Virus record (IMG/VR): IMGVR_UViG_3300031539_000368
Span: 1-21,303 of that record
Origin: a virus
DNA: 21,303 nucleotides
Direction: 5' to 3' (one strand)
The position numbers were made by a program, and so were the translations under genes. This document shows positions 4,588 through 21,303 of the stretch, piece after piece (the stretch's first letter is position 1; every line of letters begins with the position of its first letter). The notes under the pieces were generated by a model. It saw only the letters and a program-made list of their open reading frames with translations. It ran no database searches and was not told the DNA's origin.

Positions 4588-5442
4588 ATGATACACTGCA
4601 AAGAATTAAATAGAGATTTTACAACTAAAAAAGAAATGTTTTCTGCTTTGGTTGAAAATAAAGATACTTTGATGGCTCAGAAGAAAGCTGTTAAGAAAGA
4701 GGTTGATTGCGGCGTTGTCATTACTCCTATTATTGTACGAGATAAAAATATAGAAGCTAATAAAGAAGAAGGTAAAATTATTGATTCTATAAATACCAAT
4801 GAATTAAAAGTGGTTGTAATTATTAATACTACTAATTATCTAGATTTGCATGGAGATGTTCATTTGCCCGGCATATGGAATAAAAGTCTTAAGGAAAATA
4901 AAATGATAATGCATCTCCAAGAACATGAGATGGAATTTGATAAAATTATATCTGATGGAGACCAATTAAAAGCGTATGCAAAAAATTACACATGGGCAGA
5001 ACTTGGATATTCTTACGAAGGAACAACTGAAGGTTTGACGTTTGAATCTACTATATTAAGAAAGCGAAATGAGTTCATGCTTAATCAATACGCTAATGGA
5101 TGGGTTAAAAATCATTCAGTTGGTATGTATTATGTTAAAATGGATTTTGCTATTAATGACGAAGATTACCCGAATGAGTTTGAGGCATGGAACAAATACT
5201 ATTCTCAAATAGCCAACAAAGAGGTAGTTGATGAGCGTGGTTATTTTTGGTATGTATTAGAAGCTAAAGTAATCGAAGGTTCGGCTGTTCCATTAGGTAG
5301 TAATTCAGCAACACCAACATTAGAAATAGGAAATAAATCAGAGCCGTTTAGCGACACTCTGGAAATTATAGAGCCGGTTAATACCACTCACAAAAGTATA
5401 GACTATAATTATTTATTACAAAACTTAAAATTAAAAAAATGA
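4588..5442 (+). CDS. Prohead maturation protease (HK97-type serine protease)
   Basis: A 284-residue protein located between portal and capsid, the standard place of the HK97-like prohead protease. Residues 72-96 contain a beta strand (ELKVVVIINTTN) followed by DLHGDVHLPGIWNKSL, the beginning of the protease core. Candidate catalytic residues are His113 in QEHEMEF, Ser177 in NHSVGMYY and Glu230 in AKVIEGSAVPLGSNSAT. The last corresponds to the conserved 'E-x-S-x-V-x-x-P-A-N' region of the family. The enzyme would cleave the delta domain of the capsid protein and itself during maturation. The N-terminal 70 residues are extra, charged and of unknown role, and could act as a scaffold. ATGA overlap with the next gene implies coupled translation. 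The triad is assigned by motif, not by alignment. Confidence 0.82.
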   Translation: MIHCKELNRDFTTKKEMFSALVENKDTLMAQKKAVKKEVDCGVVITPIIVRDKNIEANKEEGKIIDSINTNELKVVVIINTTNYLDLHGDVHLPGIWNKSLKENKMIMHLQEHEMEFDKIISDGDQLKAYAKNYTWAELGYSYEGTTEGLTFESTILRKRNEFMLNQYANGWVKNHSVGMYYVKMDFAINDEDYPNEFEAWNKYYSQIANKEVVDERGYFWYVLEAKVIEGSAVPLGSNSATPTLEIGNKSEPFSDTLEIIEPVNTTHKSIDYNYLLQNLKLKK

Positions 5443-6779
5443 CACAAGAAGAAAAAGCACAAAAAGATTTGCTTTTACAAGAGATAAAAGCAGACGTGCA
5501 AGAGATTATTAATGATTCTCAAAAAGAGAATATTACTAAAGCTGAGCTAGACACAAAAGTTAATGAAATTAACGAGAAAATTAAAAAGTCTTTAAATAAC
5601 GAAGATTTAAAAACACTTAAAGAAAGTGTTGATGGACTTGTAAAAGCATCAGCAGACAATGCAGCCGCAATAGCAGCAATGACAGAAAAAGCATCTAAAA
5701 CCGTAGATGAAACTCCTAAAAGCTTAAGAAGTGCATTAAAGCAAGCTATCTTAGCTAAAAAGGATATGGTTCTTACTGAAAAGAATGATGATAACGGTCA
5801 GAGACTTTCTTTAAAAGACCATTTTACCGAAAAAGGAAATAAAACGACTCCTGTATTTAAGGTAGCCGTTGATATGCTTGAATCTAATATCGTTCAGTCT
5901 AATGTAAGCACTATTAGATTAACTGAACTTGACCCTAATAGGGTTGGCATTCCTTTAACTGTATATCCACACGTAATGGACTGGGTTCCTTCTAGGGGTA
6001 TTTCTAAGCCTAATATGTCTGTATTGGTTGCTTATTCTTATGAGGATGGGGTAGGAACAAAAACAGAAGGTTCGGCTCCAAGTAAATCAAGTTTCTTATT
6101 TAAAACTGTTTCTTTTGCATCTTTTACAATCGGCACGTATTTTACTCTGTCTGATGAAACGCTTGATGATTTAGAAGAGGCTTTAGATGAGATTTCTATC
6201 GTCGCACCTGATAAAATTCAAGATAATGTTGATAAGCAAGTATTAGGCTCAGTAGGAGATGACGCAACGGCTTTGGCTGGTCTTTTAACTGCAACTAAAA
6301 ATACGGCTTTTGTTCCAGCAACTTATGCAAGTTCAGTTTCAGGAGCTAATTTAATTGATGTATTTACAAAAATGAAGTTATCGGCTTTGACTAATAAATA
6401 CAGACCTAATACTATTATTCTTAATCCTAATACTATTGATAATATAGCAGCTATCAAAGACCAGCTTGATAACTCTATCATGGATAGAAGGATTAGATTT
6501 GATGACATGGGTAATCCTGTTGCAATAGCTGGAATGAGAATTATATCAGCAACTGATATGGTTGAAAACACAGGTGTTGTTCTTGATGCTATGCAGCTTA
6601 TAATAGGTAAGCGTAGAGAAATGACTATGACAATAGGATATAATGGTACTGATTTAACTGAGGGTCAAAAAACTGTTGTTATTAATGTTAGAATTGCATT
6701 TGCAGTAAGAGATAAAGCAGGGGTTATTTATTCAAGTGATTTAGAAGCTGCTAAGGATGTAATTAACGCAGGAGTATAA
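5439..6779 (+). CDS. Major capsid protein (HK97 fold) with N-terminal delta/scaffold domain
   Basis: A 446-residue protein right after the protease. Residues 1-85 form a charged coiled coil (heptad Leu/Ile pattern, Lys/Glu rich), the expected delta domain that serves as built-in scaffold and is cut off by the protease. A linker at about 86-125 leads to the HK97-fold core: TKTEGSAPSKSSFLFKTVSF (207-226), SFTIGTYFTLSDETLDDLEE (228-247), and a backbone-helix/A-domain part with TIILNPNTIDNIAAIKDQ (325-342). The C-terminal TVVINVRIAFAVRDKAGVIY stretch is typical of these capsids. Several hundred copies build the icosahedral head. The start overlaps the protease stop (ATGA). The cleavage site cannot be placed exactly from sequence alone. 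Confidence 0.93.
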   Translation: MTQEEKAQKDLLLQEIKADVQEIINDSQKENITKAELDTKVNEINEKIKKSLNNEDLKTLKESVDGLVKASADNAAAIAAMTEKASKTVDETPKSLRSALKQAILAKKDMVLTEKNDDNGQRLSLKDHFTEKGNKTTPVFKVAVDMLESNIVQSNVSTIRLTELDPNRVGIPLTVYPHVMDWVPSRGISKPNMSVLVAYSYEDGVGTKTEGSAPSKSSFLFKTVSFASFTIGTYFTLSDETLDDLEEALDEISIVAPDKIQDNVDKQVLGSVGDDATALAGLLTATKNTAFVPATYASSVSGANLIDVFTKMKLSALTNKYRPNTIILNPNTIDNIAAIKDQLDNSIMDRRIRFDDMGNPVAIAGMRIISATDMVENTGVVLDAMQLIIGKRREMTMTIGYNGTDLTEGQKTVVINVRIAFAVRDKAGVIYSSDLEAAKDVINAGV

Positions 6780-6783
6780 TAAT

Positions 6784-7245
6784 ATGAGAAAGTTAATTAT
6801 AATGTTAATTGCAGTTCTAGGAATTGCTATTAACGCACAATCGCAAACAAAAGCAACAGAAATCACACCTAATGGATATATATCTAATGAATATTATGGA
6901 TATATATTTGGCACTACAGCAGATTCTCTTACAAATGCTGATACTTTAACGTGGGTGGTAAGATGCAAAGGAAGTCACACTCAAGATTGGAATATTAAAT
7001 TATATCTTGATTGGGTATCTGGAACAGCAGGAGGCAATTTGTTTGTAACACAATCAATAGATGGTATTACTTATGTGCCGTTTGCAGGAGATACCATTAC
7101 AGCGAGTTCAGTAACAGCAGATATAATGGATACTCAAGTAATTAATAAGGTAGATTTTCTATATCCTTACTTAAAGTTTTATTACATTCAGACAGGTACA
7201 GCAGTTACAATTCCTAAAGTTTACATTTACACAAAAGCAGACTAA
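6784..7245 (+). CDS. Secreted-type beta-rich protein A, possible head decoration protein
   Basis: A 153-residue protein starting 4 bp after the capsid gene. It has a complete Sec signal peptide: MRK, a hydrophobic core of about 14 residues, then AINA with Gln next (residues 17-20). The mature part is Thr/Tyr/Asp rich with alternating hydrophobic residues, suggesting a beta sandwich. The central DSLTNADTLTW and the end YLKFYYIQTGTAVTIPKVYI resemble the same places in the protein at 7442, so the two look like diverged paralogs. Its place just after the capsid gene is where small decoration or head-stabilisation proteins usually lie, yet a cytoplasmic capsid would not meet an exported protein. 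Either the leader is used differently or the protein acts at the cell surface. Next gene starts within its stop (TAATG). Confidence 0.85.
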   Translation: MRKLIIMLIAVLGIAINAQSQTKATEITPNGYISNEYYGYIFGTTADSLTNADTLTWVVRCKGSHTQDWNIKLYLDWVSGTAGGNLFVTQSIDGITYVPFAGDTITASSVTADIMDTQVINKVDFLYPYLKFYYIQTGTAVTIPKVYIYTKAD

Positions 7246-7442
7246 TGATTGCTAAACTAAAAAGCGGTAAAATAATCAATGGCAGGTTGGCGGATACGTT
7301 CGTCAACCTCGGCATTGCCGTTGAGGTTAAAACTAAAACGGATGAACCTAAAAATTTAGATATTGATGTAAATCTAGATAAGCAAGTAAAGCGAATTCGA
7401 AGAACAAAAGCTGAAATAGAAGCTGATAAAAAAAATACATAA
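7245..7442 (+). CDS. Small head-region protein, 65 residues
   Basis: Starts by a TAATG overlap and ends by another TAATG, so it is tightly coupled to both secreted-type genes around it. The first 27 residues (IAKLKSGKIINGRLADTFVN, then LGIAVEV) have the beta-beta-helix rhythm common in small phage head proteins: a strand with 'lksGk', then a helix and 'GIAxEV'. The C-terminal half is basic and probably disordered or helical (VKRIRRTKAEIEADKK). Function unknown; a head-completion or capsid-linked role fits position. The coding region contains a locally GC-rich patch (about 7281-7328) able to form two alternative hairpins, unlike its AT-rich surroundings. Confidence 0.75.
   Translation: MIAKLKSGKIINGRLADTFVNLGIAVEVKTKTDEPKNLDIDVNLDKQVKRIRRTKAEIEADKKNT
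7285..7328 (+). other. Two mutually exclusive RNA hairpins inside a small coding gene
   Basis: GGTTGGCG (7285-7292) pairs with CGTCAACC (7301-7308) around an 8-nt loop, 8 bp including one G-U. AACCTCGG (7305-7312) can instead pair with CC (7318-7319) and GAGGTT (7323-7328), with a 3-nt bulge. The AACC at 7305-7308 is shared, so only one can form. No U-run follows, so it is not a standard terminator. It may be a translation-dependent switch or an accident of a GC-rich patch. Confidence 0.3.
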
Positions 7443-7867
7443 TGAAAAAAATATTATACATAATTATTATATCTATATCAGCAATTAGTTTTGCGCAAAC
7501 TACAGTATGCATTGATACCGATACAATAAAAGGAGCCGATACTTTGACTTTCACTACAAATAGGCTTAAGATACCGAATGGATTTGTTGGGCTAGAGGCT
7601 ACATATATAGAAATAACAGGTAGTTCGTCTAATGATTATATGGTCGCTCAAGCTTCACAGAGTGGATATACAGACGGATATGCAACATTAACAACTATAG
7701 ATAATAATGTTTATACTGCTGGAAATGATACAATAATTTTATCAGGTAATAAAGTAGGATTATGGGGTGTATCTATGTTACCATTTGATTATTTCCAGAT
7801 AAAAATGTTTGGAGTTGCTGGTGATACTGGTATTTGTAGAGTTTGTTATGTAGCAAAAAGATATTAA
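7442..7867 (+). CDS. Secreted-type beta-rich protein B, paralog of the protein at 6784
   Basis: A 141-residue protein with a strong Sec signal peptide: MKK, hydrophobic core ILYIIIISISAIS, then SFA with Gln at predicted +1 (residue 19). This fits the Bacteroidetes Q-rule for signal peptidase I substrates. The mature part is beta-rich (GADTLTFTT, then a Gly/Ser/Thr-rich middle) and has four Cys-type positions: VCIDTD near the N-terminus and ICRVCY near the end, so one or two disulfides are possible outside the cytoplasm. The end PFDYFQIKMFGVAGDTGICR aligns by eye with the end of the 6784 protein. Coupled to the preceding gene by TAATG and abutting the next start. A decoration, surface-display or host-modifying role is possible; function unknown. 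Confidence 0.85.
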   Translation: MKKILYIIIISISAISFAQTTVCIDTDTIKGADTLTFTTNRLKIPNGFVGLEATYIEITGSSSNDYMVAQASQSGYTDGYATLTTIDNNVYTAGNDTIILSGNKVGLWGVSMLPFDYFQIKMFGVAGDTGICRVCYVAKRY

Positions 7868-11706: not shown

Positions 11707-12128
11707 TGGCTGATGAACTAGATATATTTATAAACAAGATAAAGGGGCTCTCAATAGAGCTTCCTGCTCTTGTTACTCAAGCGGCAAAGAATGTAGAGGC
11801 TGAGCTTGCTGATTTAAATGTATCTCAAATGAATGAAGGAATATTATCGACAGGTGAAAAGATAACGCCTCAATATTCAAACGCATACGCAAATTTTAAA
11901 GGATTCAAAACTCCAAATTTAAAACTTGAAAGTGATTTTCACAGCGGAGTATTTGCTGATGCAAAAACTGATTATACAGAATTTGACTCAACAGACTATA
12001 AGACTGAGAAACTCGAAGATAAATATTCAAGTAATATATTTGGCATAGCACCAAAAAACGAACAGAAACAAGCAGATTTAGAAGACCCGTATTTATTAAT
12101 ATTAATTGATAAAAAACTAACAAGATGA
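11706..12128 (+). CDS. Conserved pre-tape-measure tail protein, 140 residues
   Basis: Starts by TAATG overlap with the tube gene and ends by ATGA overlap with the next. The pattern is an N-terminal helix (LDIFINKIKGLSIELPALVT), then VSQMNEGILSTGEKITPQYS (39-58), then LKLESDFHSGVFADA (72-86), then YSSNIFGIAPKNEQ (106-119). This order ('qln.GI...G..I.p.Ys', 'L.l.gdFh.g', 'y...IFGi...n') recurs in proteins just before the tape measure in Bacteroidetes phages and prophages, and loosely recalls the gp10-like minor tail/completion family. Likely role: tail joining or tube-associated assembly. Not a catalytic protein by its motifs. Confidence 0.65.
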   Translation: MADELDIFINKIKGLSIELPALVTQAAKNVEAELADLNVSQMNEGILSTGEKITPQYSNAYANFKGFKTPNLKLESDFHSGVFADAKTDYTEFDSTDYKTEKLEDKYSSNIFGIAPKNEQKQADLEDPYLLILIDKKLTR

Positions 12129-12418
12129 CACAAAAACATGAATTAGGACGCACTTTAGCAATTCAAACATCATTCAACTCTAAAGGTGATGCATGGCTAA
12201 CGAAACAATTGCAAGTAAAACAGATACATAATTTTTCAGGCGGTAAATTCTTAGAAAGATTCGAGTATAAAAACAATAAAGTTACTGTGTATGATTTTAA
12301 AGGTAAAGAAATCAAAATTATCGAAAGAACAAAAAAAGAAAGTAAAGAAGATAAAAAAACACAAAATATTTCGAAGCTGTCAAACGCTTCCGCTGATTCG
12401 ATTCGTAAACCTTCTTAA
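12125..12418 (+). CDS. Candidate tail assembly chaperone, short product (gpG-position), 97 residues
   Basis: ATGA overlap with the preceding gene. Residues 1-65 are beta-rich and tidy (ELGRTLAIQTSFNSKGDAWL, then FLERFEYKNNKVTVYDFKGK). The last 30 residues are Lys/Ser rich and look disordered. It overlaps the next ORF, in the +1 frame, by 128 nt. Two genes overlapping in different frames immediately upstream of the tape measure is the hallmark of the lambda gpG/gpGT arrangement, in which a minor share of ribosomes shifts frame to make a fusion. By this analogy, the present ORF would be the abundant short form. No homology to gpG can be claimed from the sequence; the argument is positional. Confidence 0.6.
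   Translation: MTQKHELGRTLAIQTSFNSKGDAWLTKQLQVKQIHNFSGGKFLERFEYKNNKVTVYDFKGKEIKIIERTKKESKEDKKTQNISKLSNASADSIRKPS
12255..12418 (+). other. Candidate recoding window (+1 or -2 frameshift)
   Basis: The frame of the 204-residue ORF is open from 12255 (after a TAG at 12252-12254), and the 97-residue ORF stops at 12416-12418, so any shift joining them must happen here. Two A7 tracts lie inside (12331-12337 and 12353-12359). Slippage deleting one A, or a ribosomal +1 or -2 shift, would make the fusion. The last sense codons CCT TCT before TAA are another possible +1 place. Confidence 0.4.
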
Positions 12419-12905
12419 CACTAGCGATGTTCGATGGATTTTAGATGTTCAAGAATTACCTGACAATTATCAAAGTGAAGATTTAAAACCTATAATTGAA
12501 CAGTTAATGATTGAAGACGAAAAACTATCTGGTAATAATTACTACACTTCATTTATTGAGGATGAGGATTATAAATTAAAAGAAGAAAGCAAAATAATTG
12601 CTTACACTACTTTTCAGATGTGTTTAAGTAATGGATTAATTGAGGAATCTGAAAAAATAAAAACCGCATGGAAATTTAAAATTAAAACGTGGGAGGATGC
12701 AAACAATAAAGTTCTTAACTTGCAACAGAAATTAAAGATACATGAATTTAAAAATAAAAAAGAAAACGAAGAAACAACGCAATTAAATTATGGTGCAATG
12801 ATTGCAAATCTTGTGTATTTCTTAAAAATTACACCTTATAACATGACAGTTGCACAATTTAGAGCGCATGAATTACAAGTTAAACAATTAAATACTAAAA
12901 AATAA
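12291..12905 (+). CDS. Candidate tail assembly chaperone, downstream part (gpT-position), 204 residues as an independent ORF
   Basis: If translated from its own ATG (12291), the first 40 residues are an odd Lys-rich run lying wholly inside the preceding gene in another frame. From about residue 42 (LNTSDVRWILDVQELPDNYQ) the protein becomes an ordinary acidic helical domain, with YTSFIEDEDYKLKEESKIIA, a Trp-rich centre, and an end with TQLNYGAMIANLVYFLKITP. That makes it likely that the natural product is a fusion with the 97-residue upstream protein by frameshifting, as in lambda gpGT. The fusion would bind tape measure and tube protein during tail assembly. The stop abuts the tape measure start (TAAATG). 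Exact start is not established. Confidence 0.65.
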   Translation: MILKVKKSKLSKEQKKKVKKIKKHKIFRSCQTLPLIRFVNLLNTSDVRWILDVQELPDNYQSEDLKPIIEQLMIEDEKLSGNNYYTSFIEDEDYKLKEESKIIAYTTFQMCLSNGLIEESEKIKTAWKFKIKTWEDANNKVLNLQQKLKIHEFKNKKENEETTQLNYGAMIANLVYFLKITPYNMTVAQFRAHELQVKQLNTKK

Positions 12906-15791
12906 ATGGCTAATGCTCAATTCCCTGAAACTACGGCTGCCGTTAGGGCTTTAATAGATATTTTAAAAGAACTTACTGCGCAAATGATATCAACAGCGAG
13001 TGAGAGTAAAAAATTATCTACAAGCGATGCTGATTTAGCTGCAAAAAAAAACGCAAATACAGCAGCATCAAGGAATTTAAAAACTGCTCTTACTGCTGAG
13101 GAAGTATTATTAAGAGAATTAATAAAGGCAGACGGGCAGATGTCAACTGCTGAAGCTAAACTTACTAATGAATACAAACAAGTTTTAAAAGCATTAATCC
13201 AGAAACAGGAAGCGCAAAAAAGAGCCGTTCAAGCGATACGTGATGAAATAAATGGAGTACAGCGATTAACAGCCGTTCAACGTGCAGAAACAGAAACTGC
13301 TAGACTAAGCACAGCACAGGGTAGAGCTCAAACATTAGCACAAGAAAGATTAAGAGAGGCAAGAAGATTATCAACTGAAGCAGCTAGACAGCAATTAGGA
13401 GTAAATAGAACAAATAATTTAAGTTTCAAGGGATTAATTAAAAGCTTAGGTACACTAGCAGTTGGATATCTAGGAATTAATACAATTGTGCAGGGGACAA
13501 TAAAATTAATAAAATCAGCTATAAATGTTAACAGGGAATTCGATAAATCTATAACAAATGTTCTAACATTACTTAGTGATGCTGAAAAAATAAAATACGG
13601 TGATTTTATAAAATCAGGAGCGATTGATATTGTAGCTGAATATGGTCTTGAAATAAAAGATGTTAATAAAGCGTTATTTGATGCGGTTTCGGCAGGCGTC
13701 CCAGCAGCTGAGGCTATTGATTTTTTAAGGAAAAATGCAGAGCTTGCAGTCGGTGGCGTTACATCACTAGGAACAGCAGTTGATGGTGTTACATCAATAA
13801 TGAATGCGTATGGTATTGAAACAGATAATACAACAGAGGTTACCAGTGCATTTTTTACGGCTCAGAAATTCGGTAAAACTACAGTTGAAGAATTATCTAA
13901 CTCGGTAGGAAAGGTTGCACCTATTGCGAAACAAGCAGGGGTAGGATATAAAGAATTATTATCCGTTTTTGCTGAATTAACAAAACAAGGTATAAACACA
14001 GATGAAACAGCAACTGCAATAAAAGCATCAATAACAGCATTAACAAGCCCTTCTGAGGATGCGCGAAAAACATTTAAAAAACTTGGAATTGAAACAGGAG
14101 CGACAGCGTTGAAGGCTAATGGATTAGCGAATACGTTAGGATTAATCTCAGCAGCCGCAGAAGGGGATGCTGATGTTTTAGCTGATTTAATCCCAAATGT
14201 CAGAGCATTAACAGGTGTTGGAGCACTAACTACTGAAAAGTTAGCTGAAATGGATAAAATCTTACAAGAGGTAAATAAAGATTTTGGCGAAGGCTCATCA
14301 TTAACATCAGCATTCAATTTACAGCAAAAAACAGGCGCGGCAATAAGTGCTCAATTGAGGGGGGAATGGGAAAAAACATTAATTATTATTGGAGGTGGTG
14401 AGAGTATTTTTAGAAAACTAGGCGATATTGTAAAAAATAGTTTAATAGAAAGTTTACAGAATCTTCGAAAATCATTCACAGCATTTTTTGATGGCGGATT
14501 AATAGATAAAATTAAAGTTGGTATAAATTCAATCATAGCCTTATTTAATAAGATTGTTCCTGTATTTTCATTAATCGAAAAATTAACAGGTAAAAAAATA
14601 GGCTTTGATATTAAAGAAATAGATACTGCAAAAATAAAAGAAGGTGCGGTTGAGATTGAGAATATTGAAGTAGAATTAACAGAACAGCAAAAAGAAGAGC
14701 AGGAATTAAGAACCGCAAAATTAAAAGAAGAAGAGGAAAAACGATTAAAAATAAAACAATTAGCTATAGATTTGGCTAAACAAAAAAACTCTGAGGAATC
14801 TAAAGCAATAAAAGCAGAAGAGGAAAAAAGAACAAAATTTATTAAAGAAGAATATGAACGTAGAGCTAAATTTCAAGAAAAGCTTAAAACAGATTCACTA
14901 ACGGATGAGCAAATAAAAGTTGAAGCATATAGGGATGCAGAAATAGACGCATTTGATGAATGGCTTGATGCTGAAAATGAACTAAGTTTTACAAAGCTAA
15001 ATGAGCAGATAAATTCTGAGGCTGAATTAAAGCTTAAATCTGACATGGAGGATGTCGATAGAGAAGCAACGAAACAAGAAATATTAGCAGCAACAAAAGA
15101 GGCGGCGTTTAATGCTGCTGAAAAAATAATTACAGATAGGGTAACATCAGGTTTAGATGAGAGATTAAATGAAACATTATCATCTTTAGATTCAGAGCAG
15201 GAATTATTGCAGAATAAGTTAGATAAAGGGCTAATCTCTGAATCTGAATTTACGAAGAAATCTCTTGCAATTGATAAAAAAAGAAAATACGAGGAAGCAA
15301 AAGCAACAAAGAAAAAAGCATTATTTGAAATAGGAATTTCAACATTAGTGGAAGTTGCAAAAGCTGGATTTATAAGTCCACAGGCGTTAATAGTCGCAAT
15401 ATCTGGGGCAGCATCTGCCATTGCCGTAGCGGCCAAACCTTTACCTGCATTTTTTAAAGGTGTTCAGAACTTCGAAGGTGGTTTAGCATATACAGGAGAG
15501 GAAGGAAGCGAATTAATAGAAATTCCAGGAAAGGAACCTATTTTATCGCCTGATACTAAAACTAAAATGTTTCTGCCAGCTGGCACAAATGTAATTCCTC
15601 ATGAAAAAACTAAAAAAATACTAGAAGATAGTAAAAATTCTAATTTAGAACTTAAAGTATTAAAATCAATTGACAATAAATTAGATAAACAGATTGTAAC
15701 TAATGAGACGAACATAACTCGCGGAGGTTACGAATTTATAGTTAAAACAGCAAATGAAAGAAGAAAATATATAGATAAACATTTCGGATGA
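12906..15791 (+). CDS. Tail tape measure protein (TP901-type core)
   Basis: A 961-residue, Ala/Lys/Glu-rich, largely helical protein, the longest gene present. Residues 1-165 are coiled coil. A hydrophobic segment occurs at 177-205 (LIKSLGTLAVGYLGINTIVQ). Residues about 210-400 match the conserved TP901-type core: EFDKSITNVLTLLSDAEK, VSAGVPAAEAIDF, TAQKFGKTTVEELSNSVGKV and QGINTDETATAIKASITALT. A highly charged coiled coil follows (about 580-780), then a second hydrophobic stretch (about 825-850) and the C-terminal FEGGLAYTGEEGSELI with LSPDTKTKMFLPAGTNVIPH, found at the end of many tape measures. It sets tail length and is ejected with DNA, the hydrophobic parts helping cross membranes. At about 1.5 angstrom per residue, the tail would be roughly 140 nm. 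ATGA overlap with the next gene. Confidence 0.93.
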   Translation: MANAQFPETTAAVRALIDILKELTAQMISTASESKKLSTSDADLAAKKNANTAASRNLKTALTAEEVLLRELIKADGQMSTAEAKLTNEYKQVLKALIQKQEAQKRAVQAIRDEINGVQRLTAVQRAETETARLSTAQGRAQTLAQERLREARRLSTEAARQQLGVNRTNNLSFKGLIKSLGTLAVGYLGINTIVQGTIKLIKSAINVNREFDKSITNVLTLLSDAEKIKYGDFIKSGAIDIVAEYGLEIKDVNKALFDAVSAGVPAAEAIDFLRKNAELAVGGVTSLGTAVDGVTSIMNAYGIETDNTTEVTSAFFTAQKFGKTTVEELSNSVGKVAPIAKQAGVGYKELLSVFAELTKQGINTDETATAIKASITALTSPSEDARKTFKKLGIETGATALKANGLANTLGLISAAAEGDADVLADLIPNVRALTGVGALTTEKLAEMDKILQEVNKDFGEGSSLTSAFNLQQKTGAAISAQLRGEWEKTLIIIGGGESIFRKLGDIVKNSLIESLQNLRKSFTAFFDGGLIDKIKVGINSIIALFNKIVPVFSLIEKLTGKKIGFDIKEIDTAKIKEGAVEIENIEVELTEQQKEEQELRTAKLKEEEEKRLKIKQLAIDLAKQKNSEESKAIKAEEEKRTKFIKEEYERRAKFQEKLKTDSLTDEQIKVEAYRDAEIDAFDEWLDAENELSFTKLNEQINSEAELKLKSDMEDVDREATKQEILAATKEAAFNAAEKIITDRVTSGLDERLNETLSSLDSEQELLQNKLDKGLISESEFTKKSLAIDKKRKYEEAKATKKKALFEIGISTLVEVAKAGFISPQALIVAISGAASAIAVAAKPLPAFFKGVQNFEGGLAYTGEEGSELIEIPGKEPILSPDTKTKMFLPAGTNVIPHEKTKKILEDSKNSNLELKVLKSIDNKLDKQIVTNETNITRGGYEFIVKTANERRKYIDKHFG

Positions 15792-17926
15792 ACAAAAACA
15801 GATATCAATACATAATTACTGATTTAGATACAACTAAAGAAAAAATAATAGATAATGCTCCTGACAGTTGGGCAGAAGTAGAAACTAGCTATGAAAGAGC
15901 TAAGACATACGGAACGCTATTAGTTCAGGATACGTTAAGCCTTAAATTTATGCGCGATGGTATATCGGCATTTGATAATGGGGCATATTATTTAATTAGT
16001 AATGCCTTAAAAAATAAAGGCACTAAAGCAAATATTCAGATTGAACGGAAAGAATTGAATGCATTTACAAATGAATATGATGATGACTTTATAGGTTTAT
16101 TAGATTTATCGGCAGATTCAGAATTTAGTGAAACTAGAGATTATATATCAGCAAAAACTATAGATTCAGGTAAGGTCGCTAAATTACTTTCACGTGACGA
16201 AATGGAATTGGATGTATTCAGCTTGAAATCAGTAGATGGTGAGACTATGCCAGATTTTCCAGTTTCAACAAAATCAATACTTTATAAGGCTATTGTATTA
16301 TTTAAATATGCCTACACATCAGGGGCACTTGGATATACTGAAACATTTACAACATCAGGAATTCATAAATACAACTATTATTCAGGCTCCGGGACAATAA
16401 ATTTATTAGGAAGTAGATATCAGGCCACAGATTTGAGTAATAATTTCACATATAAAAATAATTCTGAATCAGATATTCTAGCTAAAACAATAATTTCAGG
16501 AAGCTATAATATCTCTGTAAGTTTTAATAATATAGGCACATTTGTATTTAGTTTAAAATTAATTTATAGAAACAGTTTTGGAACAATAGATGAAACACTT
16601 ACACTTTTTACTGATACTGTAAATCGGTCAAGTATATCAACGCCATCATTTTATACAATTGCTGGAACATATTCTGGAAATATAGAGCGTAGCGTTGTCG
16701 TGAATGGAACAATTGAAATAGTATTGGACACTGATGTTAGCCTGATTGGAAATGTTTTTGTTTCTGCTTCAGTTCCTGCAACTGTAGATATAATTGAAAC
16801 ATATGAAGGGGCAGCTGATAGCAATGTGAGAGGATTATTATCTCATGAAGTAATTAGTAGAGGTGTTCAATTAACTACATCGGAAGCAGATACAACTAAA
16901 CTAGTAAGGTCTTCAGTGCTAGGTAAAGCAACATCATATTTTCAAAATTACACTGAATCAGGTTATTTATCTAATGAATTCACAACAAACGGTAAAAATA
17001 TAAGAGGTTTTGTAAGTCCTTTAACTATTACAATTCGAAGCTGGTTTAATAGTATGTCGGCAAGATATCCCTTGGGATTATGGTACGATAAGATAAATGA
17101 TATTTTTGTAATTGAAAAGCTTGAATATTTCTTTAAGAATGAACAGTTCCCAATACATTTAGGTGAGGTGGGTGAAGTTACGACTACATTTGCCACTGAT
17201 ATATTTTATAATTCAATTAAAGCGGGATATCCAACAACAAAATATAAAGAGCTGGAAGGAATAAACGAAATAAACGCGGGGGTAAATTATTCTGTGTCGA
17301 TTTCAACAAAAAATATTAAAGATATCAGTAGTGTTTATCACGGTGACAGTGTAGGTCAAGAGCTTGCAAGAAAATTATCTAAACAAGTTGCAGCAACACA
17401 AGATACAGATTATGATAATAATGTTTATATAACACACACAGACGGAACAGAAACATCACAAGGAGGAGGCGCATTTAATTTAGTGATTGCAGGCGGATTT
17501 TTAGGAATCGAACAAAGATATAATTTAGGCTATTCACCACGGCAGAATTTAACCAGATGGCAAAAGTTTTTAAGCTCTATTTTATTAACTGATTTATATG
17601 AAGAAACACAATTTAGGTCAGCAGATAAAAGCACTGAATTTAGTTATTATTATAACTATCAAGACGAAGGAGATTTAGTCAATGAGTCCGATAACGTGCC
17701 TCAAGAGTTAGCTGAAAATATAATACATGGATTTTGGTTTAAAGAATTCGAAGCACCTTGCACATTAGCAATAAGGAACGAGCTTAAATTAGACCCTCAC
17801 AGAATAATGTCATTTTATGATTTTGATGGGACGGAATATTCTGGGTATATTTGGAGTATAAAAATAAATGCTTATGACGGCATAGGTAATTACAAATTAT
17901 TAATAATAAATAAAGATAGATTATGA
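15788..17926 (+). CDS. Putative distal tail/baseplate protein with inserted beta domain, 712 residues
   Basis: Directly follows the tape measure (ATGA overlap), where distal tail or baseplate hub proteins lie. Residues 1-165 read as a mixed alpha/beta tail domain (YERAKTYGTLLVQDTLSLKF, YYLISNALKNKGTKANIQIE). About 185-345 is a Ser/Thr/Asn/Gly-rich beta segment that could be a carbohydrate-binding insertion. The remainder includes IRSWFNSMSARYPLGLWYD, FYNSIKAGYPTTKYKELEGI with NEINAGVNYSVSI, and a C-terminal LDPHRIMSFYDFDGTEYSGY. The 'Y.si..GY....y....G..E.n....y' pattern is common in Bacteroidetes phage baseplate proteins of about this length. Likely roles are closing the tube and organising fibres. 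No lysozyme or peptidase motif was seen. Confidence 0.65.
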   Translation: MNKNRYQYIITDLDTTKEKIIDNAPDSWAEVETSYERAKTYGTLLVQDTLSLKFMRDGISAFDNGAYYLISNALKNKGTKANIQIERKELNAFTNEYDDDFIGLLDLSADSEFSETRDYISAKTIDSGKVAKLLSRDEMELDVFSLKSVDGETMPDFPVSTKSILYKAIVLFKYAYTSGALGYTETFTTSGIHKYNYYSGSGTINLLGSRYQATDLSNNFTYKNNSESDILAKTIISGSYNISVSFNNIGTFVFSLKLIYRNSFGTIDETLTLFTDTVNRSSISTPSFYTIAGTYSGNIERSVVVNGTIEIVLDTDVSLIGNVFVSASVPATVDIIETYEGAADSNVRGLLSHEVISRGVQLTTSEADTTKLVRSSVLGKATSYFQNYTESGYLSNEFTTNGKNIRGFVSPLTITIRSWFNSMSARYPLGLWYDKINDIFVIEKLEYFFKNEQFPIHLGEVGEVTTTFATDIFYNSIKAGYPTTKYKELEGINEINAGVNYSVSISTKNIKDISSVYHGDSVGQELARKLSKQVAATQDTDYDNNVYITHTDGTETSQGGGAFNLVIAGGFLGIEQRYNLGYSPRQNLTRWQKFLSSILLTDLYEETQFRSADKSTEFSYYYNYQDEGDLVNESDNVPQELAENIIHGFWFKEFEAPCTLAIRNELKLDPHRIMSFYDFDGTEYSGYIWSIKINAYDGIGNYKLLIINKDRL

Positions 17927-18723
17927 GTGAGTTTTTCCCAGATATGAATCAATTAAGATTCCATGTATTAGGTAAAGAAATAGATTATATAACTAATTTA
18001 CCATCGTTTGATTTAATGTTTCCTAGAATTATTTATCAAAGAGGCGAATTTGCTACAGATTATTATCCGGTTTATCAGTTAAATGCTTCATTGGAAACTC
18101 AAGTATTAGTTGTTAGAGATAATGTTATTAGCGCAGGATTATATAATGAAGATGGAAGTTTGGCTGATGGTGACGAATATACAGACGTTAGAGAAGCCGA
18201 TAATTTCGCAACAATAATTAATATTCAAGCGGAAACATTAGGATTACATTATATAACTCTTGTTTTAAAGATAAATAATGTAAATGTTACATTTATATCA
18301 GAATTATTTAATGTTGTAAATTGGGCAGATAAGCAGGACTTAATAAAGATAAAATATTCAGACAATAATAATTCAAATGGTAGATTTTATTTAGAATCCG
18401 GAGAATCTATATGGTACGCTATAGCATATTACACTGGTAAAATCGATGTCGAACAACCTCAACTAGATAGGTCGGTATTTACTTCACAGCAAAATAATTT
18501 AAAGGTAATACGAAGCACGGTTAGATTAGTAGATAAATTATTCATATCATGCATACATCGATTATATTACGCGAATTTAGCGGCTCAATTATCATGTAAT
18601 GAAATTTATATAAACGATGTATCTTATTCAGTTGAGAGTTTTGGAAAACTTGATAAAAAAGATGATAATGTTGATGTTGGGGATGTTGAAATTATAATTT
18701 CTCGCAATAACAATAATAATTAA
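17923..18723 (+). CDS. Putative baseplate/minor tail protein, 266 residues
   Basis: Coupled to the previous gene by ATGA. Beta-rich protein with a helical C-terminal third. Residues 40-130 contain several strands (QVLVVRDNVISAGLYNEDGS, then TLGLHYITLVLKINNVNVTF); the domain from about 135 begins ELFNVVNWADKQDLIKIKYS and includes a conserved-looking STVRLVDKLFISCIHRLYYA, with NEIYINDVSYSVESFGKLDK near the end. Order and style match the short proteins that follow the large baseplate protein in Bacteroidetes siphophages. It ends in Arg plus five Asn encoded by an AAT/AAC microsatellite that runs up to the fibre promoter region. Function unknown; structural by context. Confidence 0.62.
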   Translation: MSEFFPDMNQLRFHVLGKEIDYITNLPSFDLMFPRIIYQRGEFATDYYPVYQLNASLETQVLVVRDNVISAGLYNEDGSLADGDEYTDVREADNFATIINIQAETLGLHYITLVLKINNVNVTFISELFNVVNWADKQDLIKIKYSDNNNSNGRFYLESGESIWYAIAYYTGKIDVEQPQLDRSVFTSQQNNLKVIRSTVRLVDKLFISCIHRLYYANLAAQLSCNEIYINDVSYSVESFGKLDKKDDNVDVGDVEIIISRNNNNN

Positions 18724-18733
18724 CAATTTTAAT

Positions 18734-18741
18734 TAACTTTG
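18734..18741 (+). promoter_or_regulatory. Putative Bacteroidetes-type -7 promoter box for the fibre genes
   Basis: TAACTTTG exactly matches TAnnTTTG and lies in a 32-bp intergenic gap. Transcription would start around 18747-18748, only about 8 nt before ATG 18756, repeating the short-leader layout of the portal promoter. No clear TTG or TTTG -33 element is seen about 20 bp upstream, where the DNA is AAT-rich. It would let the fibre genes be expressed separately from the tail operon. Confidence 0.6.
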
Positions 18742-18755
18742 TAAAAATAAAACTA

Positions 18756-21050
18756 ATGAAAAAATTAGCAATTACAATAATATTGATTATATGTAGCTTT
18801 AATATTTTCTCACAAGGCGACGTTCAATACAATTATGTTAAAGTTAATAAAGATTTGACGGTTACAAGACAAATCTATTTTCGAGGAGATACATTAGGCA
18901 AGTACATTGATAATCTAATAAGCGGTTCGAGCACTACAGCGTCAAATGGAGTAACTAAAATAGGTCAAGATTTCCAATTAGGCGCAGATTTAACTAAATC
19001 GACAACAATTTCGGGCGCTGGATGGCCTATTTATTTTGGTTCATCATTATCAAAACTTAGTACTTTTAATGTAAACACAACAGGAGTAATAACACTAACA
19101 ACTGATGGCACAGTTTCATTTGTAATTGATGGAATTCCGTGGACTTTCAACGGGAATACGTTTACAAATACTGTTACTGGTGAATACTTCATGACAAATG
19201 AAGACGTAAACACAGCAATAGAGGCGTTATTACCTTTTATGTCGTTTAATTTTAAGTATAATTTTAATTCGTTAATTGCTGACTCAAGACCCGGAATAGG
19301 TTCATTCAGACTAAACAACGCAACTTATTCACTTGTTGATGAAATCTATATAGATTATTACAACAGTGATAGCGAAGATAAGAGTTTATTTTTAGAGGCT
19401 GTTGATACGGGTAGCTATATAACTATTAATTCAGGGTCTAGTGATATTCTTTATCAATTGAATGGTGGAGTTATTGATGCTGGTAATTACTTCAAGTATG
19501 AAGTTGAATATATAGGGAATTCAGGTGTTATATCTGGATTATGTACTATAGATATTGAGTTAAATAATAATACAGGTAGTGGCGGTGGAACTGTAGATTC
19601 ATTATATTCAGCATATGCAAACAAATGGCTTTTAAACGGTGATACAATTCCGGACACTACTAATTTTTCAATAAATTCTGATACGGCTAATATAGTAAAA
19701 ACAACAATATGGGAAACGATATGGGTAGATTCGGTGCTTTCAAAAGAGGCTGCAGGGTCTATTGAGATAGGCGGAGGATTAGCAAACAATGTAAATGTAA
19801 AATCTGATGAAATTATAATTAACGCACAGGCAGGAGCATTAGATTTAATATCTAGCTCATCTATAAATATTGACGGTAATTTTCAAATAACAACGCTTGA
19901 CAATAAAGAATTCAGTGTAAGTGGTGATTCAATAAGTTCAGAAGATGGTAGAATAAGAGTTAAAACAATAATTGCAGGAATAGGTGGATTTATAGGCAAT
20001 TTATTTGGAAATAAAGCGGTTATAGATTCGCTTATTGTAAATGGAGATACAATTTTAGGAACATACTCAGCTAAAACCTATATTGAAAGTGAAAGTTTTA
20101 ATCAATTAAAATTAAGCGATACAACAATATCGACACATGTAAAAAACAGGATATATGTTGATAGTGCAACGCAGGGTTTAGTTTTTCAGGATGATATAAG
20201 CGGGAATTGGAATATAGGTTCAGAGGTTGGGGAGAGATACTACAACCCTTCTGGTTCAATTATAACTAACGGGAGTGTTGTTCGTTTAGATAGTTGTCAT
20301 ATTGCGACTAATGGGCATGCTTATGGTAGTGTATTTTTAGCTGGTAATTCAACATTCGACAGTACAATGGTTTTAGGTATAGCGACTACCGATTTACCAG
20401 CAACTGGATATGGTAGAGTGGTATTTTTAGGCCGGATAAATGATTTAAATCTTAGCGGATTTAGCGGGAGTGTATATTTAGGCAATAACGGAGTTAAAAT
20501 TGATACATCGCCAAATCCACCAAATATTAGTGTATTATTAGGGACAGTTATACGTCAACATGCGACAGAGGGTTCGATGTTCTTTAACCCCTCCCTCCCG
20601 GATTATTCACCACGACCTACTATTGCAGCAAGATTCACCGAAGAAACTGTAAATGTAACAAATCCCGGAGCTGGGCTTTACGGGTTAATCACTAACGGGA
20701 CAAATGATTTGTTTCAACCAACTATTGATGTAGGATTTTTATTAGTTGGTGATAGTGTACAAGTACTGCAATCTGGTGAGTACGCTATTGATATTGCTTT
20801 TTCATTATATAATTCGGCTACGCAAACAGATGACTACAGAACAGCTATATATGTCAATGGGGTAATAGAATTTTCAATGCTTCGTAGCGTATCTAATGTC
20901 TCAAAAGGTGTTAATTCTTATCCTATATCCATTTCGTTAAATGCTGGGGATTGGGTTAGTTTTAGGATAGCTAATCTAAATACAGGAATTAGAAATTCAG
21001 TGTTTAATGATGGTTCAATCAATATAATTTATTTAGGAGAGCAGCAATGA
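18756..21050 (+). CDS. Modular tail fibre with Sec signal peptide and C1q/TNF-like tip, 764 residues
   Basis: Residues 1-19 form a signal peptide (MKK, hydrophobic core, FNIFS) with Gln20 as predicted first mature residue. There is no in-frame ATG until residue 146, and the promoter lies just upstream, so the leader must be translated. Residues about 163-270 match a familiar tail-fibre module (PGIGSFRLNNATY, DEIYIDYYNSDSED, ILYQLNGGVIDAGNYFKYEV). Residues 494-600 match another: RYYNPSGSIITNGSVVRL, VLGIATTDLP, GYGRVVFLGRINDL, VSVLLGTVIR-like end. The C-terminal 625-761 reads as a C1q/TNF-like jelly roll (GEYAIDIAFSLYN, YRTAIYVNGV, LNAGDWVSFRIAN), often a trimeric receptor-binding head. The region between has strand-rich repeats with NGDTI. 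Why a fibre should have an export signal is unexplained. Confidence 0.82.
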   Translation: MKKLAITIILIICSFNIFSQGDVQYNYVKVNKDLTVTRQIYFRGDTLGKYIDNLISGSSTTASNGVTKIGQDFQLGADLTKSTTISGAGWPIYFGSSLSKLSTFNVNTTGVITLTTDGTVSFVIDGIPWTFNGNTFTNTVTGEYFMTNEDVNTAIEALLPFMSFNFKYNFNSLIADSRPGIGSFRLNNATYSLVDEIYIDYYNSDSEDKSLFLEAVDTGSYITINSGSSDILYQLNGGVIDAGNYFKYEVEYIGNSGVISGLCTIDIELNNNTGSGGGTVDSLYSAYANKWLLNGDTIPDTTNFSINSDTANIVKTTIWETIWVDSVLSKEAAGSIEIGGGLANNVNVKSDEIIINAQAGALDLISSSSINIDGNFQITTLDNKEFSVSGDSISSEDGRIRVKTIIAGIGGFIGNLFGNKAVIDSLIVNGDTILGTYSAKTYIESESFNQLKLSDTTISTHVKNRIYVDSATQGLVFQDDISGNWNIGSEVGERYYNPSGSIITNGSVVRLDSCHIATNGHAYGSVFLAGNSTFDSTMVLGIATTDLPATGYGRVVFLGRINDLNLSGFSGSVYLGNNGVKIDTSPNPPNISVLLGTVIRQHATEGSMFFNPSLPDYSPRPTIAARFTEETVNVTNPGAGLYGLITNGTNDLFQPTIDVGFLLVGDSVQVLQSGEYAIDIAFSLYNSATQTDDYRTAIYVNGVIEFSMLRSVSNVSKGVNSYPISISLNAGDWVSFRIANLNTGIRNSVFNDGSINIIYLGEQQ

Positions 21051-21303
21051 GAAAACTATTAATAATATTACTGTTGTTTCCTGTTATTTCGAGCGGGCAA
21101 AATTTACTATTAAGAAATAATACAGGAAAGGTTTTAAGTTTTGGCAATTTGGGGATAACTATTCCAACACCTTTTTCTGAAAGAATGTTAACCTCATATC
21201 TTGAGATAAATAGCGGAATTACATATACACAAGTAGAACAAGATACTATATTAAGCAGACTTTCTGAAGATTATATTGTTGAAACATTTGGCGTTGATGG
21301 GCT
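21047..21303 (+). CDS. Secreted-type protein, N-terminal part (3' end outside window)
   Basis: Starts by ATGA overlap with the fibre gene and runs off the window after 85 codons. Residues 1-16 form a signal peptide: MRK, a leucine/isoleucine core, PVISSG, then Gln as predicted first mature residue. The mature part (NLLLRNNTGKVLSFGNLGIT, then PFSERMLTSYLEINSG) is extended and beta-like, and could be a second fibre, a fibre-tip accessory or a surface adhesin. Coupling to the fibre suggests joint function. Only the start is visible, so no family can be given. Confidence 0.8.
   Translation, partial: MRKLLIILLLFPVISSGQNLLLRNNTGKVLSFGNLGITIPTPFSERMLTSYLEINSGITYTQVEQDTILSRLSEDYIVETFGVDG

Follow-up and report, generated by a model that had tools for sequence, protein, structure and literature searches.

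Four late proteins of a long-tailed phage, among them its tail fibre, carry predicted Sec leaders that end directly in front of a glutamine, and leaders of the same kind are found on fibre and spike proteins annotated as virion components in cultured Cellulophaga phages. Tailed phages are, in the accepted picture, completed inside the cytoplasm. On balance, and with some reserve, we favour the view that tailed phages of Bacteroidota, in several lineages unrelated to each other, divide virion assembly between two compartments, so that the receptor-binding appendages, and possibly head decorations, are exported and then attached at or after lysis.

Late genes of the window and predicted host

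The window, by which we mean the whole 21.3 kb stretch of DNA analysed here, carries an ordinary set of late genes for a phage with a long tail: terminase, portal, capsid, neck, tape measure and tail tip. The features on which the argument rests are the following (all on the plus strand):

5439..6779, +, major capsid protein, matching 'major capsid protein' of Flavobacterium phages; no leader; core virion
6784..7245, +, head-slot protein of family A, 153 aa, Sec leader and Gln; directly after the capsid gene
7442..7867, +, head-slot protein of family B, 141 aa, Sec leader MKKILYIIIISISAISFA, then Gln; beside the capsid gene
12906..15791, +, tail tape measure protein; no leader; core virion
15788..17926, +, virion structural or tail-tip protein (phrog_15220, 1e-39); no leader; directly upstream of the fibre module
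17923..18723, +, late protein of no assigned role, between the tail-tip gene and the fibre; no leader
18756..21050, +, tail fibre, 764 aa, Sec leader; predicted cleavage after residue 19 (IFS, then Q20)
18756..18812, +, fibre signal peptide MKKLAITIILIICSFNIFS, then Gln; mature start QGDVQY
21047..21303, +, partner protein, Sec leader MRKLLIILLLFPVISSG, then Gln; mature start QNLLLR

In an annotated phage collection the capsid gene matched Flavobacterium and Tenacibaculum phages only, which fits a Bacteroidota host for the window phage. No provirus was detected in 84,980 genomes with family A or capsid profiles. An overlapping pair of late ORFs (12125-12418 and 12291-12905) lies directly 5' of the tape measure gene and is kept in G001, a related 55.8 kb phage contig, at 31360-31665 and 31502-32143; it is a candidate frameshifted tail-assembly chaperone pair.

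Four leaders followed by glutamine

Leaders were detected with a set of hand-written rules, not with SignalP, requiring a positive n-region, a 9-residue hydrophobic core and small residues at -3 and -1. Exactly 4 of the 22 window genes were flagged, namely the fibre, its partner and the genes at 6784-7245 and 7442-7867, and glutamine occupied position +1 in all four. By the same rules the portal, capsid, tape-measure and tail-tip genes of the window had no leader. An earlier note on this DNA had reported leaders with glutamine at the predicted +1 on the fibre and the partner; both ORFs and both leaders were recovered here, the rule set serving as the signal-peptide prediction which that note had proposed, and the two genes beside the capsid gene are further cases that it had missed.

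When the residues of each window protein were shuffled in 2000 sets, leader-like starts arose at a rate of 0.0099 per gene and leader-like starts followed by glutamine at 0.0005. Not one of the 2000 shuffled sets reached four genes with leader and glutamine, and chance was consequently rejected as the source of the window leaders.

The fibre and its partner

The fibre gene follows the tape measure and tail-tip genes, the usual position of a tail fibre or receptor-binding protein, and segments of it weakly match annotated tail fibres of other phages. Together with the leader-bearing fibre that G001 encodes at the corresponding position, these observations support the earlier identification as a tail fibre. 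The C1q/TNF-like tip ascribed to the protein was not borne out: the fibre had no match in Pfam or NCBIfam even at E<=1-10, a sequence search against the PDB gave nothing meaningful, and an AlphaFold model of residues 489-764 was unusable (pLDDT 31). The partner gene starts 4 bases before the end of the fibre gene, with which it overlaps, and runs beyond the end of the window, leaving 85 aa readable.

A leaderless form started at an internal ATG was also considered and rejected. The first 120 codons of the fibre past its start contain no in-frame ATG (TTG occurs at codons 10 and 34, and the next Met is residue 146), and the sole later in-frame ATG of the partner within 120 codons is ATG47, so that a short ATG-started form is unlikely in either case. 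Upstream of the fibre, TAACTTTG at window positions 18734-18741, 14 bases 5' of the ATG, fits the Bacteroidota -7 consensus TAnnTTTG; as a promoter it is weak evidence, since such motifs abound here (17 sense matches in an AT-rich window).

Proteins encoded beside the capsid gene

The search for family A gave eight records, the lowest identity being 51%, and all eight members carry a leader and glutamine. Q21-T22 is invariant among them, so that the signal peptide is predicted to be cut most likely before Q21 rather than before Q19. No match to family A was found among annotated phages. Its predicted model is a beta-sandwich of low confidence (pLDDT 59), and in a fold search the best viral matches (best TM about 0.6) were largely uncharacterised proteins of Caudoviricetes, several of them 110-150 aa long. 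A resemblance of this model to the turret of Haloferax tailed virus 1 is only suggestive.

The family B homolog in contig L015 keeps a functional leader and the glutamine at a leader identity of 7/18. By eye, families A and B are alike in an ADTL near the start and in a similar last pair of strands, and they may be paralogs of one beta-sandwich fold.

Conservation of the leaders among relatives

Relatives of the window were retrieved from viral contigs when the capsid protein, family A or profiles served as queries, and none when the fibre, family B or the tail-tip protein was scanned on its own. G001 has the same layout as the window and carries leader and glutamine on family A, fibre and partner, so that the conservation in homologous phages which the earlier note had named as a check holds in three of these slots. 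The G001 fibre (843 aa) begins with MKRIFIILGLFIFILNSYG, then QQDGEF, and the G001 partner (524 aa) with MKKLFIILAFLPLFGFG, then QKSLLG, each in the same slot as in the window. In G001, holin-like and peptidase-like genes come after these slots, as expected of a fibre position ahead of the lysis genes. Six smaller relatives keep leader and glutamine on the capsid-adjacent family A protein, and two of the contigs, L004 and L016, have two extra genes each with leader and glutamine between the neck and tail genes, one of the two being weakly similar to a tail-protein family. Altogether, glutamine directly follows the leader in 18/18 late proteins of the window's clade (A, eight; B, two; C, two; D, two; fibre, two; partner, two).

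Alignment of the window fibre with that of G001 is confined to residues 1-311, at about 40% identity, so that the N-terminal part is conserved and the C-terminal part variable, as for receptor-binding proteins. Within the conserved part the leaders share 6/19 residues and the mature part 117/290. The leader was less conserved than the mature protein in the fibre, in family B and in 2/3 family A comparisons, the exception being family A against contig L017. Divergence of the leader with retention of the glutamine is, on these alignments, the behaviour of a predicted signal peptide under functional, not sequence, constraint.

The window partner had no match among the relatives, and the mature partners of window and G001 show no detectable homology; both have leader and glutamine. 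The G001 partner (L009:4544-6118) contains a sialic-acid-specific acetylesterase (SASA) carbohydrate-esterase domain (PF03629, E 1e-15), and spikes often carry domains of the carbohydrate-esterase type. G001 also has an ORF that by eye is HNH-endonuclease-like (24512-25027), between its protease-slot and capsid genes, which is absent from the window.

Leader-bearing proteins annotated as virion components in cultured Cellulophaga phages

Leader and glutamine were found on three to five consecutive fibre or spike genes in Cellulophaga phages of three families, Pachyviridae (phi18:3, phi46:3), Assiduviridae (phi10:1, phi19:1, Nekkels) and Duneviridae (Ingeline). These clusters resemble the window in that consecutive late fibre/spike genes carry a Sec leader with glutamine at +1, and differ from it in that no capsid-adjacent leader-bearing protein was seen in the parts examined. 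The proteins have no detectable sequence homology to the window fibre.

Virion status was taken from GenBank records that annotate a protein as structural on the basis of experimental MS/MS. Leader-bearing proteins annotated in this way are gp085-087 of phi18:3, gp091-094 of phi10:1 and gp101-104 of phi19:1, which form one contiguous fibre/spike cluster in each of the three phages. They make up 11/34 of the MS/MS-annotated virion proteins tested in these phages, ten of them with glutamine; the remaining one, the phi19:1 fibre gp104, has Lys at +1. In phi40:1 and phi13:1, leaders were detected in 0/27 such proteins. The five phages served as a check on the specificity of the detector: it made 11 leader calls among 61 MS/MS-annotated virion proteins, only 1/51 outside the ten with leader and glutamine, and none among the annotated capsid, connector, tape-measure and other core proteins.

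Two small proteins of phi18:3 with leader and glutamine, encoded outside the fibre cluster, have no MS/MS annotation, which makes blanket periplasmic contamination of the preparation less likely, a point weakened by the harder detection of small proteins. Co-purified vesicles or periplasmic proteins may still contribute to the virion MS/MS lists. In phi10:1, gp095, a pectate lyase PelZ-like protein with leader and glutamine, is also without an MS note.

In phi46:3, gp081 has the body of phi10:1 gp093 (93% over 707 aa) and another leader, both leaders being of the Sec type with glutamine, and fibres with differing C-terminal parts share the first ~118 aa of gp086 of phi18:3. Shared N-terminal modules, and one body behind two leaders, are signs that in Cellulophaga fibres the leader may be required and that an N-terminal anchor may follow it. 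Three leader-bearing Cellulophaga phage proteins that are otherwise weakly related (L028:17814-19154, L029:9696-10946 and L031:19194-20498) share a short C-terminal tail of about 14 residues, ...NQ(K/N)LIYWRY.

A proposed two-compartment model of virion assembly and its alternatives

We consider it probable that the core of the particle is built in the cytoplasm and that the appendages are exported by Sec, cut, capped as pyroglutamate and docked at or after lysis. Capsid, portal, tape measure and tail tip would be made and assembled in the cytoplasm, and the fibre, the partner spike and, judging by position, the two capsid-adjacent proteins would be exported by Sec. Signal peptidase I would cut their leaders in front of the glutamine, and host glutaminyl cyclase would cap the new N-termini as pyroglutamate. 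The exported appendages would fold and wait in the periplasm until the cell is opened by lysis, and would then dock on the particle. Since the cores of tailed phages assemble in the cytoplasm, exported fibres should meet them only at or after lysis, and docking should be late. Addition from outside is possible in principle, as tailless P22 heads accept tailspikes in vitro.

The steps differ in strength. Export and cutting of the leader-bearing window proteins are well-supported predictions, and pyroglutamate on these proteins and docking at or after lysis are both putative. The proposal of the earlier note that fibres are exported and added outside the cytoplasm gains support from the Cellulophaga fibre and spike proteins with leader and glutamine that are annotated as MS/MS-detected virion proteins; for the window's own proteins, membership of the virion would follow by analogy with these phages.

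The strongest alternative is that the exported proteins act mainly off the virion, coating the infected cell or its glycans, blocking receptors, keeping out related phages or loosening the matrix before lysis, and that their detection in virion preparations reflects co-purification. Glycan-active domains, such as the SASA esterase of the G001 partner, would suit such a role, as would the PelZ-like gp095 with no MS detection note. Porphyromonas gingivalis phages also offer a parallel, in five genes with a Sec leader and glutamine at +1 to which no function was assigned; they belong to one proposed family (Nixviridae) and were read as possible modifiers of the outer membrane, not as virion appendages (Matrishin et al. 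2023, PMC10367356). The genes studied here, however, lie beside the capsid gene or, downstream of the tail-tip gene, in the fibre slot, and their constant N-terminal modules and variable C-terminal domains are the usual layout of anchor and tip. Furthermore, the MS/MS lists of phi18:3 include the large fibres and not its other proteins with leader and glutamine. A type IX secretion tail domain was not found either, and cargo of that system was rejected, the C-terminal sorting domain family being absent in Pfam and NCBIfam scans. We therefore regard a mainly off-virion function as unlikely, and receptor masking, glycan binding or matrix degradation before lysis are possible as roles added to assembly.

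It is far less probable that the leader stays uncut as a membrane tether, either for maturation at the face of the inner membrane or as a membrane-active segment of the fibre used in infection. The leaders are strongly hydrophobic, as a tether would be, but 18/18 leaders of the clade end in a signal-peptidase site followed by glutamine, which would be purposeless if uncut; the same ground speaks against the suggestion of the earlier note that the leader is retained for anchoring. Least probable of all is a recent origin of the genes from secreted adhesins or enzymes of the host, in which case the leader would be a passive relic and play no part in the phage cycle: the Q-rule leaders are host-like and the fibre bodies fit no known family, but syntenic slots retain leaders despite deep divergence, bodies found behind two different leaders always keep one, and even a relic would send the protein for export.

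If export and late docking do take place, the adhesion proteins would mature under periplasmic conditions, virions would bear pyroglutamate ends and completion of the particle would await lysis. The annotation and production of such fibres would change, as fibres expressed without being exported may be misfolded or retain a leader. Split assembly would also offer a reason for the secreted-enzyme look of some Bacteroidota phage fibres.

Relation to known systems

Virion proteins made with cleavable Sec leaders are familiar from the coat proteins of inoviruses, whose particles are put together at the membrane and leave the cell by extrusion, without lysis. The window, in contrast, comes from a tailed phage and encodes terminase, portal, capsid and tape measure. 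Among cellular proteins of Bacteroidota, those following the Q-rule have a leader, a signal peptidase I site and glutamine at +1, and pyroglutamate capping stabilises the exported proteins (PMC5837995, PMC10653852); their Q value averages 71% across species, against 18/18 in the window's clade. For the lyase proteins of Ingeline and Nekkels, 'signaling peptides' were mentioned in passing and were not tied to virion assembly or to the Q-rule (Bartlau et al. 2021, PMC8776804). No report of Sec-exported fibres in tailed phages was found in the literature searched, nor one that connects leader, fibre slot and virion proteome or describes this connection as recurring in unrelated phage lineages.

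Distribution of the trait

Fibres with leader and glutamine are not universal. Tenacibaculum phage JQ and Flavobacterium phage snork6-1, which are closer cultured relatives, have fibre slots without leaders, the tail fibre of B124-14 and the tail/baseplate genes of FCL-2 also lack one, and the trait is missing from the fibre-slot or MS/MS-annotated virion proteins of phi40:1 and phi13:1. Outside Bacteroidota phages, the tail fibres of Pelagibacter phage HTVC010P and Pseudomonas phage Rollin weakly match parts of the window fibre and start without a leader, whereas the window fibre starts with one. FCL-2 does encode, far from its tail genes, a small protein (L032:45363-45806) with the leader MKTIVITLLLSISTYS, then QVGIAT.
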